Shown here piece by piece: positions 27,695 to 32,114 of a stretch of DNA of 64,000 nucleotides. How positions within the stretch are numbered: the first letter of the stretch is position 1; each line of letters opens with the position of its first letter. The position numbers were made by a program, and so were the translations under genes. Source of the stretch: Roseibium album. GTDB taxonomy: Bacteria; Pseudomonadota; Alphaproteobacteria; Rhizobiales; Stappiaceae. The notes beneath the pieces were generated by a model that did no database searches, was not told the origin of the DNA, and was given only the letters and a program-made list of their open reading frames with translations. The stretch spans positions 1 through 64,000 of the forward strand of contig NZ_CXWE01000004.1 of NCBI RefSeq assembly GCF_001404515.1, in the 5' to 3' direction.

Positions 27695-29731
27695 TCAAAT
27701 CTTCAACAGGCTTTCCCTGTCGGGATAGGCTGTTTCGAAAGGGAGCGTAGTGACACCATTCAGAATGCGGTCCAACAGCGCATCAAGCAATTCAGTGCGC
27801 AGATCGAAATCCCGGTGAGGTCCGAACAGCTTCTTGAGTTCTACGCCTGGCTCACCGGACAAATTTGTTGCGGGCGCACCAAGTGCGAGCAAACGAGCCT
27901 GTTCACGGTTTTCGCACCGGTAAGTCCCGCCGGTCTCGAGTCCCGAATACCCCCCGTTTGCGCGCCTTTCAGCCATCGCGAGCACGCGCCCCCAAAGCAA
28001 TGGCCAGTTGCCACCGTATCCTGGAAAAGGCCGATCTTCTCGCATCGCATCTTCACTCTGGAGATAGAGATCGACCTTTTCAATCCCGACATCTGAGCCA
28101 CGCGCTTTGCGGCTGACCGGCAGATCACGCGGGTGATACAGTCGCTCAACGAAGCTTTTGCGGAAAAGCTCTTCAGGTAGCATGGGTGAAAACAGGCTGA
28201 GTGAGGAAAAGATCGGCTGCCGGCTCCAATAATCCGTCTGTCTGAACAATTCGGCCAGCAACAACGAACCGAACCCGTGCGCGGACATATGGTATGAAAT
28301 CTCACCCTGGCGATACCGGGGCTCAAGCGCGCTGAACAGATCATTGAGGATTTGCAAGCCTTCGCCGAGCGTGTTCTTTTCGCTTTTATAGACGACAGAC
28401 ATCGAGCTACGCCGGATTTCCTCGACAATTCGAAGCGCGGCGCCAGACAACTGTCCCTCGATGTGACGATCTTTTTCAGGGCTCTCGCCCAGGCCGATGA
28501 GCTTGTTCGCGCGTCCCACTTCTGCTTCCACCATATCGTGTACCGCAACACACAAATCGTTTTCGACGGTGACAAAAAACGGATAAACCCCGTTCTTCTT
28601 GAACACGGGAACTGCATCACGGAGCGCCGACATCGTCGCGTTTTCGTGCCGCTGCAGCCCCATGAAATGAATCAGGATGTGTTTGTATTTGGAGCTTTCA
28701 GCGAGGATCCTGACTGTCTCTTTCAACGTTGCCATATCGATATGGTATGGACCGAAGCGATCAAGCTTTCCGCGTGAAGTCGACGCGATATGGCCGAGGA
28801 CGTCGAAGCGGGTGGGCGGTGAGACAGGGTCAATGGATGCATGGTCGAATGCGCCCTGCCCCAGCTGCGCTCCGCGTGATACGGCGGCCTGAGCGCTGCC
28901 AATAGCAGAGTGACTGGCGATCGGAACTGCGAGCCTGAGAACCCACATGTCGACGACACTGGACGCCCAGTCTTCGTAATTCCAGAGTGCCACCCCGTCT
29001 TCGCCCCAATTGGCGCCCCACGAATTCTGCACGAGAAATCCGCGTTCCGTATATCCTACAAGGATAAAGGCATGCCGACCCAACTTCTCGGACTTCGTTT
29101 TGGGAAGACCGATGTCAGCGGTTTTGGTTGACCATCCTTCGTGGATGTCGGCGGAAGCAAGGACCAGTCCTGCCTCGCAAAGGGCTGCATGTACATCCGG
29201 CAGTCTTGGTCGGACGCGATAGTAGGCACCCAGCTGAACCTTGCGCGCACTTTCCAGGATTTCCCTGGTCATGTGCCATTCGCGCCCCGATAGTCCCTTG
29301 GCGACCGTGTCCGCGCATGCGCCATTGAAATAGAATGCTTTCAAAGCCCCGCGGATCGACGATCCTTCATAATTCTCACCAGGAAATCTGTCGTGAAATC
29401 GCGCAATGTTGTACAGCATGTTTGCTGAAGCCCAGGGTTTTCTGTCTCCCTTGCCCAGCTTCGTTTTCGCGGATTTGTCGAGCATACGATCGCGCACACG
29501 TAGGTGATCGATAATGCCTGCCAGTGCGTGTGCGGTACAACTTCCCGCGTCACCCTGATCGCGGATGCGGCCACTGCTCCACCAGAGCGAGTTACCCGAG
29601 CGCGGATCGACCTGGCGCGCCAATCCGGACAACGCGGGCTGGTATACGTAGTCTCGTACGTCTCCGACGTCCGCGCTGGTGGTCAGCAAACGTTCTCCGC
29701 GAAACAGGAGACTTGACTTTGCGGCGCTCAA
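27695..29731 (-). CDS. Papain-like (C1) peptidase fused to an alpha/beta-hydrolase-like domain
   Basis: 678-residue protein without a signal peptide or membrane helix, so probably cytoplasmic. Residues about 20-270 form a papain-type peptidase: oxyanion Q59 and nucleophile C65 in RDQGDAGSCTAHAL, general base H220 in LGRHAFILVGY, and N236 in QNSWGANWGEDG. Residues about 305-640 look like an alpha/beta-hydrolase core: KHILIHFMGLQ as strand and oxyanion loop, and SAHGFGSLLLAELF (483-496) as nucleophile elbow, but the nucleophile position is not Ser in a GxSxG motif. The pseudo-hydrolase may bind rather than cut. It lies 24 bases after the protease-nuclease gene and is surely co-transcribed with it. 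No classical inhibitory prodomain is seen. Domain calls are by eye; the C-terminal assignment is less certain than the peptidase. Confidence 0.75.
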   Translation of the reverse strand: MSAAKSSLLFRGERLLTTSADVGDVRDYVYQPALSGLARQVDPRSGNSLWWSSGRIRDQGDAGSCTAHALAGIIDHLRVRDRMLDKSAKTKLGKGDRKPWASANMLYNIARFHDRFPGENYEGSSIRGALKAFYFNGACADTVAKGLSGREWHMTREILESARKVQLGAYYRVRPRLPDVHAALCEAGLVLASADIHEGWSTKTADIGLPKTKSEKLGRHAFILVGYTERGFLVQNSWGANWGEDGVALWNYEDWASSVVDMWVLRLAVPIASHSAIGSAQAAVSRGAQLGQGAFDHASIDPVSPPTRFDVLGHIASTSRGKLDRFGPYHIDMATLKETVRILAESSKYKHILIHFMGLQRHENATMSALRDAVPVFKKNGVYPFFVTVENDLCVAVHDMVEAEVGRANKLIGLGESPEKDRHIEGQLSGAALRIVEEIRRSSMSVVYKSEKNTLGEGLQILNDLFSALEPRYRQGEISYHMSAHGFGSLLLAELFRQTDYWSRQPIFSSLSLFSPMLPEELFRKSFVERLYHPRDLPVSRKARGSDVGIEKVDLYLQSEDAMREDRPFPGYGGNWPLLWGRVLAMAERRANGGYSGLETGGTYRCENREQARLLALGAPATNLSGEPGVELKKLFGPHRDFDLRTELLDALLDRILNGVTTLPFETAYPDRESLLKI

Positions 29732-29755
29732 GTTAGTTTCCCTCCGGAAAACCTG

Positions 29756-31726
29756 TCAGATCACGTCTTCGACGGAACCCAGCGGTTTGATGTGATCCGA
29801 GGTATCGGTGATGAGGCCGGTCGTCGTTTCCAGACGTTCCTTGTGCTCAACGCGCATTTCCTGGGTCACCGCGAATGTGTCGGCATCTCGCAAGGAACCG
29901 AAATCAAGTCCGGTTAACCGCTCAAGTTCTTCAATCGTGACCTGGTGTTCTTCGAACCCCTGTCCGAAGACGAGCTCCAGGTCTCCAGGTTTTACAAGAT
30001 GTCCCTGGAACAACAAAAATGCCTGGGCCTGCAGAACGCGCCGGCTGGATCGGCCCCTTTGTGAACGACCTATCGATGCGACAACTTTCCAGAAACCCAT
30101 GGGAACCTTGACGCCGCTCGGTTTTTGAACCGGGTCGCCATCGTCAAACAAACACCCGACGAAAACGGATATCTTCGCATCGACCTCATCCACCCGGTCA
30201 AGAATGTGTTCTTCCAAACGAAGCCAGATTTTCTGGTTAAGTTTCTTGTGTTGCGGAGCGATATTGGGAAAGAACATGGAGTCCCGGTTGGCCTCGTCGG
30301 CTTGGGATTTTGTTCCCCAACAGGGATCGAGCCTCCTTATGAGATGACCGCGGTCCAGGTCATTGTCGAAATAGAGATCTTCTCCCGCCTGTTTGCCTTC
30401 TGCAAGGCGAGGATCGAGCTTGAATGACTTGATGCGCCGCGGCCTGCGCAGTTCGTTTCCATCAATATTTGCAGCGGCATAGAACGCCAGTTGTCGCTCT
30501 CCATTCATGACGACTGAAAAATGCCTGTATTTCAGCTCGCTTTCACCTGCATCTGTACGCGCAAGTTTGCGCATTTGCATGCTGTTCAGCTCCGGCAGCG
30601 GTACACGCAATGAACCGCGTCCAAGAAAGTCCGGCTGATACCCCTCTCGGTCTCCAAAACGTCCGGCATCTTCCGAACTGGACCCACCGCCTTTGCCTGA
30701 ACCGGAATTTCCGCCGGAACCATCCATCTCGGAACAGGTCGTGAAGTAGACTGATCTGCGGCGCAGTACATCGGCAACCGTACCGATTTTCACTGCGTAG
30801 TTCTGCGTGAGCGCACTGCCTGCGAAGTGAAGACCGGCAGCACAGCCGGTCTCGACATCAATGATGACCGAACCGGAGTTTCCGCCGAGTGTGGTTGCGT
30901 TGTGGGTGAACACCGAAGACGAATGGTCTTCATCCATGATCCGCCCGGGTGCAAATCGCTTCACATTGTAAATGTCGCCAAAATAGCGATCCATCGCGTC
31001 CACGGGATTGTCGCGAACCGCTTTCGCGGGATACCCGATCACGCCGATGGTTTCGGGTCTTTGTCCATCCAGTTGCAAGGATATCGGGTCGGCCATGCCG
31101 CTCAACGCAGAACTTTTCACGCGCATGATCGCGACATCGGGAAGACCAGTCGGTTCAATGTGCAATATCGATGAAACCAGCAATTCCAATTGCTCGTCGG
31201 ACTGGTGTTCTTCCTTCAGGTCCATGTAGACCTTGATGCCCGGCGCCACGTCCCAACCACCCCGGATTCGGCGTGAAAAATACTCCGCAACATGCCTGTT
31301 GGTGACAAATGTGTCTTCATTCACCCGCCAGCCGGTGCCGATCCACTTGGCATTGGGATCATTCACCAGATCGACACGCCCGACATTGGCAATGGCGTTG
31401 TTGATCAGGTCACGTCTGGGTAGAAGTACCTTTTTCCAGTGATCGAGTTTCGGATCTTCAAAAGTGCCGTTCTGCACGAGCAACGACGGAAAGCCGGTGC
31501 GCATGACAATCGCTTCGGTATAGGTCGGGGCGCCAAGATCTGCTTTTCCCGTCCTGATACGATCGACCGCTTCTTCGAGCGAGGCCGAGCCGATTGTCTC
31601 CGGGCTGGCGCCTTCCAGCCCCTCGCTCGCCGTGAATGGCGTTTCCGCAACAATGTACTTCTCGTTGTCGAGAAGTTCCTCGACTGTCTGCAATTCTTCA
31701 AGCTGGGACTGGAACACCGATTTCAT
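29756..31726 (-). CDS. Trypsin-like protease fused to an EndoG-type (NUC1, DRGH) endonuclease
   Basis: 656-residue protein without a signal peptide. Residues 1-110 are an acidic helical N-terminal region of unknown function. Residues about 110-320 are a trypsin-like serine protease with full triad: H145 in VTNRHVA, D197 in LPDVAIM, S284 in LGGNSGS. A Gly/Ser-rich linker (about 335-355) leads to a DNA/RNA non-specific endonuclease at about 370-590: DRGH with H461, and the metal-ligand region FPNIAPQHKKLNQ (N488, N497). The last 60 residues are helical. It is the first gene of a two-gene unit with the papain-like protein. Protease plus EndoG-type nuclease in one chain suggests self-destruction or defence, in which cleavage could switch on the nuclease; that is inference. 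Similar fusions are annotated in other bacteria, mostly without known function. Confidence 0.8.
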   Translation of the reverse strand: MKSVFQSQLEELQTVEELLDNEKYIVAETPFTASEGLEGASPETIGSASLEEAVDRIRTGKADLGAPTYTEAIVMRTGFPSLLVQNGTFEDPKLDHWKKVLLPRRDLINNAIANVGRVDLVNDPNAKWIGTGWRVNEDTFVTNRHVAEYFSRRIRGGWDVAPGIKVYMDLKEEHQSDEQLELLVSSILHIEPTGLPDVAIMRVKSSALSGMADPISLQLDGQRPETIGVIGYPAKAVRDNPVDAMDRYFGDIYNVKRFAPGRIMDEDHSSSVFTHNATTLGGNSGSVIIDVETGCAAGLHFAGSALTQNYAVKIGTVADVLRRRSVYFTTCSEMDGSGGNSGSGKGGGSSSEDAGRFGDREGYQPDFLGRGSLRVPLPELNSMQMRKLARTDAGESELKYRHFSVVMNGERQLAFYAAANIDGNELRRPRRIKSFKLDPRLAEGKQAGEDLYFDNDLDRGHLIRRLDPCWGTKSQADEANRDSMFFPNIAPQHKKLNQKIWLRLEEHILDRVDEVDAKISVFVGCLFDDGDPVQKPSGVKVPMGFWKVVASIGRSQRGRSSRRVLQAQAFLLFQGHLVKPGDLELVFGQGFEEHQVTIEELERLTGLDFGSLRDADTFAVTQEMRVEHKERLETTTGLITDTSDHIKPLGSVEDVI

Positions 31727-32114
31727 GACTGGAATCCAAATCTTGAGTTATAAAAAAATCAGAAAATGCAACACCTAAAAATACCCTGGGTTGAGCACTT
31801 GAAATTATACAATATTTTGAGTGCCATTTAAAGTTAGGCGCAAGCAAGAATACAACCAAGTCGCGGGTTTTTTACAACTCAACTCCAAAAAATTCATGTT
31901 TTTCAGTAAATTAAAAGATTTCTGTCAGCATCATTCCTTTGCATCCAGGATTCACAAAGAAGGACGACGGTCACTGTCCCTGAATATGCCGAGGCGATAT
32001 ACAAACGATCGATGCAGACGTGATGTGCACACCGAGGGGGAAATTCGGACACAGCTCCTTATATTTTGCTAGGTAACGACTTGAGCACCTCAGGTGAACA
32101 CCAGGACAGAATTC
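31727..32114. promoter_or_regulatory. AT-rich divergent promoter region (protease-nuclease pair / selO)
   Basis: 388 bases, clearly AT-richer than the genes on both sides, with no supported ORF. A minus-strand TATAAT at 31809-31804 lies about 78 bases before the protease-nuclease start; its -35 partner is weak. The drop in GC may reflect acquisition of the two-gene unit by transfer. Confidence 0.4.

Follow-up and report, generated by a model that had tools for sequence, protein, structure and literature searches.

The window analyzed here, a stretch of 64,000 nucleotides from the marine bacterium Roseibium album (assembly GCF_001404515.1, contig NZ_CXWE01000004.1, positions 1 to 64,000), belongs to a 6.9-Mb genome in 32 contigs and carries a two-gene cassette, A-B, whose nearest relatives are found in Labrenzia/Roseibium records. 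Gene A (29756..31726, minus strand, 656 amino acids (aa)) encodes a LypC-like fusion of a V8/trypsin-like serine protease with a NucA/EndoG-type (Endonuclease_NS) nuclease. Gene B (27695..29731, minus strand, 678 aa, TTG start) follows downstream and encodes a papain-like C1 peptidase joined to a predicted pseudo-alpha/beta-hydrolase. The two open reading frames (ORFs) are separated by 24 bp (29732..29755, minus strand), with a GGAGG just 5' of the TTG of B as likely ribosome-binding site, and form an apparent operon. This agrees with the initial annotation of two large, signal-less proteins encoded 24 bases apart on one strand: no signal peptide or transmembrane helix is evident in A or B, judged by a highest 19-residue Kyte-Doolittle mean of 1.34 with no dedicated predictor run. 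The ratio of nonsynonymous to synonymous substitution rates (dN/dS) is 0.065-0.12 across both genes (three comparisons each, 0.07-0.09 for A alone; dS saturated in the window-L043 comparison, one per gene), and these low values indicate that A and B are real genes under purifying selection. Proteins of the type of A have been described before; the new element is its partner B.

Both enzymatic parts of A reside on one polypeptide, as recognized by the Pfam families Trypsin_2 (PF13365, E 5.6e-10) and Endonuclease_NS (PF01223, E 2e-41). The serine protease domain, including a conserved N-terminal lead-in, spans residues 62-330 (30737..31543, minus strand) and carries the triad H145, D197 and S284. 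It is connected by a variable Gly/Ser/acidic linker (residues 331-359; 30650..30736, minus strand) to the Endonuclease_NS domain (residues 360-620; 29867..30649, minus strand) with DRGH at 458-461 and N488. Catalytic residues and Gly/Ser linker are thus present as initially annotated, and the conservation on which that annotation had made its reading depend was found: the H-D-S triad is kept in 34/34 aligned homologous domains and the nuclease His and Asn in 28/28 aligned homologues, indicating that the nuclease of A-type proteins is under selection. These residue counts, like the 28 given below for the C1 peptidase, include near-identical rows, leave aside matches of at most 150 residues (which removed six trypsin proteins) and were made without the A-like gene of locus L079. 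The solved structures nearest to the trypsin profile of A are V8-type glutamyl endopeptidases, with whose Thr and His residues T279 and H300 of A align; these correspond to V8 Thr190 and His213, which we take to be the residues setting Glu specificity. The protease of A is accordingly described as V8-like and predicted to cut after Glu or Asp, a view that replaced trypsin-like (Arg) cleavage after the pocket alignment. Glu or Asp occurs in 7/7 close linkers read, and G344 and G347 are the linker columns invariant in a six-sequence alignment. PADLOC returned partial matches to the protease region, namely nacht (6.2e-16), RT-Protease_XI and PDC-M35A. Longer homologues (L055, L058, L060, L061, L063, L077, L080) possess a PLTVTVSLG-type inter-domain segment that is not present in A of the window.

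The N-terminal part of B (residues 20-272; 28916..29674, minus strand) matches Peptidase_C1 (E 3.4e-6), and its full catalytic set Q59/C65/H220/N236 places it in papain family C1; no PADLOC model matches B. This Q-C-H-N set is kept in 28/28 aligned homologues and in 36/36 rows of a wider set excluding the broken B of L278. The best relative in the PDB is the cysteine protease 3ois (profile E 4.7e-26, profile positions 21-267), presumably xylellain of Xylella, the solved chain of which (291 residues) is too short to contain a counterpart of the hydrolase domain of B. This second domain (residues 310-660; 27752..28804, minus strand) shows AHGFG in place of GHSAG at 484-488. The motifs AHGFG and HFMGL are shared by B of the window and six close homologues, versus GHSAG and HGG in most relatives, and position 486 is Gly where most relatives have the nucleophilic Ser. 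Thus, B has neither the GxSxG nucleophile nor the oxyanion motif of an active alpha/beta hydrolase, and because of both losses the module is predicted to be dead, i.e., a pseudo-enzyme. Of the papain and hydrolase-like modules assigned initially, the former therefore stood with C65, H220 and N236 intact, and the latter did so as a fold without nucleophile. One relative also gave a DUF900 match below cut-off. The genome of the window furthermore contains a solo B paralogue (G000:C2:825930-827936, equal to L065:8930-10936), 37% identical and with GHSAG intact, relatives of which occur in five Roseibium genomes with partly conserved surroundings.

Among 87 genomes of the family, matches at E <= 0.001 were found for A in 24 and for B in 19. 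When full architectures were required, trypsin-nuclease fusions numbered 18 and long C1-hydrolase genes 14, nine of the former adjoining nine of the latter; placement by chance, at a gene density taken as 950 per Mb, would yield about 0.004 such pairs. The initial annotation would have given up its reading for homologues that rarely neighbor each other; with 9/14 C1-hydrolase genes next to a fusion, they do so frequently. Six of the nine pairs are arranged A then B as in the window and three are reversed (G043, G044, G069). Close relatives of A and B adjoin in 6/6 Roseibium carriers, and a seventh close pair was found in Primorskyibacter (L046). The distribution is patchy, with the close pair in 6/45 same-genus genomes and few occurrences of the pair beyond the genus. 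Grouping the close and the reversed sets as one clade was rejected by the approximately unbiased (AU) test for B (p=2e-6) as well as for A (p=8e-42), a result that is strong but not beyond doubt, as both trees warn of long branches. Consequently, A-type and C1-hydrolase proteins were apparently joined at least twice. The comparisons altogether indicate that A and B are co-inherited. In Paracoccus (L071) and Roseivivax (L072), a trypsin related to that of A is even fused to a C1-hydrolase in a single protein. A divergent hypothetical gene of ~2,300 aa lies beside both fusions, and no Pfam family matched the 2,222 aa searched in L072 (E <= 0.01). No close relative of A or B was found in viral contigs or phage records, with best viral-contig identities of 28-38% for B (best 80 of 183 relatives) and 31% for A (2 loci) and all phage records below 60%. 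Plasmid records were inspected for 4 of 100 matching A and 6 of 20 matching B.

The genomic position of the cassette provides a second line of comparison. In the window, the operon is flanked by a fasciclin gene and a SelO gene. In 6/6 Roseibium carriers of the close pair, A begins immediately upstream of selO. A selO match was obtained in 37/45 genomes of the genus; the 1.5 kb beside selO, examined at 30 loci, contain A in 6, fasciclin in 2 and neither in 22. Fasciclin and selO are spaced by 795 bp in G067 and 280 bp in G061 versus ~4.6 kb in the window, and the TetR and PspA genes across selO are the same in all three. The window on the one hand and G067 and G061 on the other are an occupied and an empty site. 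The other four Roseibium carriers retain the selO linkage with varying more distant neighbors, and the upstream neighbor of the Primorskyibacter pair is integrase/transposase-like.

Extension of the analysis toward the relatives of B showed near-full-length matches in 11/385 genomes of the class (plus two partial ones), 12/398 of the phylum (E <= 1e-60) and 5/198 of the family of G338, whereby the genome of the window and G338 recur across these samples. A recognized partner was present at 23 of 43 B loci inspected, a partner being recognized by purpose-built profiles, either fused or within 4.5 kb, and near-copies being counted. Since the PEROX, S8, GDSL, CASP and LYSO profiles were built from the partner genes themselves, they count recurrences and no independent discoveries. 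Eight loci have a trypsin-nuclease and two a fused trypsin. Further B relatives stand beside a GDSL-trypsin and a haem peroxidase (L127, L279), a haem peroxidase and a GDSL-caspase (L280), an S8 peptidase and a haem peroxidase (L075), a GDSL-caspase-M15 protein (L277, L281), a GDSL-caspase plus a trypsin on the opposite strand (L074), or GDSL as the only partner (L128, L129). Others are fused to a lysozyme-like domain (L132, L133) or carry a GH19-like N-terminal domain named by eye (L273; partial match in L275, with a profile built from one sequence). Below the Pfam cut-off were the matches for GDSL in L128 and L281, trypsin in L279 and lysozyme in L133. The same GDSL-fused slot is filled by either trypsin or caspase, and the B family is, as far as its sequences indicate, recurrently paired with trypsin, caspase or subtilisin proteases. 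Four of these loci constitute clusters of a haem peroxidase, a C1-hydrolase and a GDSL-trypsin, GDSL-caspase or S8 protein (L127:5610-11677, L279:2915-9512, L280:7415-13210, L075:4194-9947). An AMP-binding protein near seven solo B genes was discarded as partner, belonging to a common family and varying in orientation. Solo C1-hydrolase genes were also observed by apparent core genes named by eye, i.e., aroA and cmk (L130:9295-11193) and alr (L135:2685-4730).

In a tree of 39 rows, which took four of seven close Bs and one of three swapped Bs (near-copies dropped) and excluded L142 as well as L278 with its broken B, all ten pseudo-hydrolase rows form one clade (99/97). A fused or clustered protease partner (trypsin, caspase or subtilisin) was found for 10/10 of these rows versus 4/29 outside. 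The clade consistently combines a C1 protease that looks active with a hydrolase fold predicted to be dead and with another protease. Its candidate effectors differ, being a nuclease, a haem peroxidase or an M15 peptidase.

Comparison with described systems places A in a known context. System 3 of Kaur et al. 2020 (PMC7159879) consists of trypsin-NucA proteins, mostly from alphaproteobacteria, with extra peptidases, and its proteolytic cascade deploying the nuclease is a prediction there as well. A combines both core features of this system, an Endonuclease_NS nuclease and a trypsin-like peptidase, in one fusion. In contrast to System 3 loci with such partners, the window operon has no STAND, bDLD2 or EAD1 protein, and profile searches of the window genome for bDLD2 and EAD1 gave no match, their reach being unproven as neither passed its cut-off in 14 control genomes. 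Since an EAD1 or bDLD2-STAND partner is optional, occurring in a subset only, this lack does not exclude A from System 3. The section text on System 3 gives no C1-papain/pseudo-hydrolase partner; its sole papain is an EAD1-linked peptidoglycan peptidase.

The second reference is LypABC, a CARD-NLR-like system of Caulobacter crescentus in which LypC was studied genetically. According to that report (PMC13236601), LypC S296A abolished lysis and H471A and N505A did not, LypABC governs the release of gene transfer agents (GTAs), and the C. endophyticus LypC homologue has no nuclease domain. A shares length and domain order with LypC; its correspondence to LypC S296/H471/N505 is drawn via a Roseibium LypC-like protein only, as S284/H461/N488 of the window align with S294/H464/N492 of the trypsin-nuclease in L048. 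Unlike LypABC as described there, the operon contains neither LypA (CARD-trypsin-ATPase-like) nor LypB (STAND) and has B in their place. With both missing, the locus is no CARD-NLR system, CARD in A or B having received no specific search. HamM/protease-HamA, AVAST and canu, as far as the text of PMC12799240 covers them, share the logic of a protease-activated pro-nuclease, and in protease-HamA fusions the enzyme domain fused to the protease has likewise lost its catalytic motif. They differ from A-B in that their nuclease has a metallo-beta-lactamase (MBL) fold and is encoded by a separate gene, and that text mentions no C1 peptidase. The initial claim that no described system has this pair therefore holds for the C1 partner, within the literature searched, but not for the protease-nuclease core, which is published (Kaur 2020 System 3; LypC). 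Titles and abstracts among the matches listed described no C1-papain/pseudo-hydrolase partner of NucA-trypsin, a scope that lies apart from subscription papers, preprints and figure 7B and the supplements of Kaur et al.

Relatives of A itself occur in diverse company. In L048, the trypsin-nuclease (657 aa) is accompanied by an AAA_16/NACHT-like ATPase of 1032 aa and by a 580 aa protein with a trypsin match below the Pfam cut-off (E 1.1e-4). Such LypABC-like clusters of trypsin-like protein, STAND-like ATPase and trypsin-nuclease were observed in the same order in three Roseibium genomes (L048:4359-11326, L049, L050) and resemble LypABC in gene sizes as well as gene order. In L059, a trypsin-nuclease-subtilase with an extra trypsin accompanies a bDLD2-trypsin protein and a STAND-like ATPase, with a homologous layout in L062. 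No partner was identified for the trypsin-nucleases of L055, L058 and L063. On rhizobial plasmids, A-type fusions reside near MoxR and SAV_2336-type genes (L080) or near CHAT, S8 and TIR genes (L077), and in L078 and L079 the fusion stands alone among metabolic genes. The latter, a stand-alone trypsin-nuclease (L079:7785-9713), resides on a plasmid of Pseudomonas aeruginosa and is flanked by ilvA and the gene of a LysR-type regulator. An IMG/VR contig classed as viral (L222:5534-10062) contains an A-related trypsin, a second trypsin with a weak EAD1 match (E 7.5e-4, below the Pfam cut-off) and a protein that shares 45-47% identity with the lysozyme-like N-terminal domains of L132/L133.

On balance, we favor reading A-B as a two-gene form of the NucA-trypsin (System 3/LypC-type) systems with an operon free of nucleoside triphosphatases (NTPases), in which a proteolytic cascade leads to regulated cell death or destruction of nucleic acids. 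A function in regulated cell death or defense is what we infer from the architecture, the apparently intact sites of the A protease, the A nuclease and the B C1 peptidase, and the loss of the hydrolase motifs of B, all of which can be read from the sequence. In the proposed cascade, which would be cytoplasmic, B would act as the switch and A as the executor. The dead hydrolase fold of B could serve as a sensing or docking platform; the analogy to protease-HamA (PMC12799240) suggests that it was retained as scaffold or sensor and led us to propose B as the switch. Upon a trigger, the C1 protease of B would engage A, whose V8-like protease might then cut in or near the acidic Gly/Ser linker, elsewhere in other targets, or both, and linker cleavage would free the EndoG-like nuclease. 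The regulated-death or anti-phage device of the initial annotation remains the best-supported reading, although its flanks match no PADLOC model, and so does proteolytic control of the nuclease; release of the nuclease is not the sole option, because in LypC the protease is needed for lysis and the nuclease residues are dispensable (PMC13236601). Protease-nuclease fusions of the LypC type have been described next to NLR-like ATPases, whereas here one papain-like partner shares an ATPase-free operon with such a fusion. If true, A-B would be a minimal system for how bacterial proteases gate a nuclease.

Several observations weigh against this reading or limit its reach. The role assigned to A-B is a proposal drawn from sequence; the acidic P1 specificity of A derives from an alignment, no conserved cleavage motif was found in the close linkers, and AlphaFold2 models of A (7-row alignment, mean predicted local distance difference test (pLDDT) 31) and B (8-row alignment, mean pLDDT 41) were too poor for use. 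The LypABC precedent of dispensable nuclease residues also counts here. With 44 AAA_16 matches in the window genome, of which the top one falls within a frame of 1071 aa, an NTPase may act in trans with A-B. The check for a defense island suggested initially turned out negative, as 0/10 flanking window genes match PADLOC models, and the locus is consequently no recognizable defense island. In the class sample of 385 genomes, the B profile hit 13 genomes and the A profile 27, in many of the latter through the nuclease alone; no genomes other than that of the window and G338 were hit by both profiles, and G338 has a nuclease-less trypsin beside B. A hydrolase-trypsin-nuclease fusion in L051 was rejected as a link to B, since the hydrolase profile of B gives no match there. 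The remaining 20 of the 43 B loci, among them L278, are without recognized partner, which shows that the B family also exists independently of such partners. Finally, an independent-pairs sign test on hydrolase loss with protease partnering had three usable pairs and gave no significance; lacking power, it leaves a clade-level pattern and no repeated correlation. The naive Fisher values of 0.07 (early lineage count) and 1.6e-6 (tree rows) ignore relatedness and were not used.

Two alternatives keep A-B within cell-death biology and distribute the roles differently. The serine protease of A could be the executioner, A-B controlling lysis, for instance in phage defense or GTA release, with the nuclease being accessory or stabilizing. 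We regard this as rather unlikely: the LypC mutants, the GTA phenotype and the nuclease-less C. endophyticus homologue (PMC13236601, as cited above) speak for it, but the nuclease His and Asn are kept in 28/28 homologues, which points to selection on the nuclease. The order could also be reversed, with the protease of A activating B and the C1 peptidase of B being the terminal effector. The invariant C1 residues (36/36) as well as the relatives fused to a lysozyme-like domain or standing beside a haem peroxidase fit such a role; A has a nuclease effector of its own, though, and B-like proteins also occur with no partner found, and this arrangement appears still less probable to us.

Explanations outside cell death fare considerably worse. 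Ordinary flanking genes and single relatives among metabolic genes (L078, L079, L130) would suit a housekeeping role in protein quality control or in the turnover of nucleic acids; the patchy presence in 6/45 same-genus genomes and the short fasciclin-selO interval of two genomes that lack the pair at this site make it improbable. That A-B is a polymorphic or secreted toxin, or a set of catabolic exo-enzymes, is hardly credible: EndoNS and papain domains are generally frequent in toxins and secreted enzymes, but A and B have no signal-like or transmembrane segment, the seven scanned neighbors (ORFs >= 100 aa) are metabolic, regulatory or envelope genes, and relatives are found with STAND and bDLD2 proteins and, by a weak match, with EAD1.

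Beyond the preferred reading of A-B as a NucA-trypsin variant with an NTPase-free operon, the B clade allows a broader and more tentative idea, which we put forward as speculative. Its papain/pseudo-hydrolase proteins might be the constant core of an unrecognized class of NTPase-free bacterial death systems with an exchangeable second protease (trypsin, caspase or subtilisin) and an equally exchangeable effector (EndoG-like nuclease, haem peroxidase or M15/lysozyme-like peptidoglycan hydrolase); such systems would amount to a stripped-down apoptosis-like cascade of two to three proteases with no apoptosome. The swap of trypsin and caspase beside related papain-like/hydrolase proteins ties bacterial "apoptosis-like" components into one comparable series.

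Regarding the sequence context, the AT-rich border noted in the initial annotation is present, with a GC content of 40% in the 5' flank of A and 47% in the 3' flank compared with 55% for the window. Promoter-like sites were no more frequent than after shuffling (3 found vs 2.8 expected), and terminator scan counts likewise did not exceed the shuffles. The promoter evidence retained is the aligned -10-like box alone, for which no alignment was obtained in Primorskyibacter. It belongs to a candidate operon promoter (TTTAAA-17-TATAAT; 31804..31832, minus strand) ~75 nt upstream of A, and in the six aligned Roseibium members it reads TATAAT in four, TATGAT in L043 and TATATT in L047.

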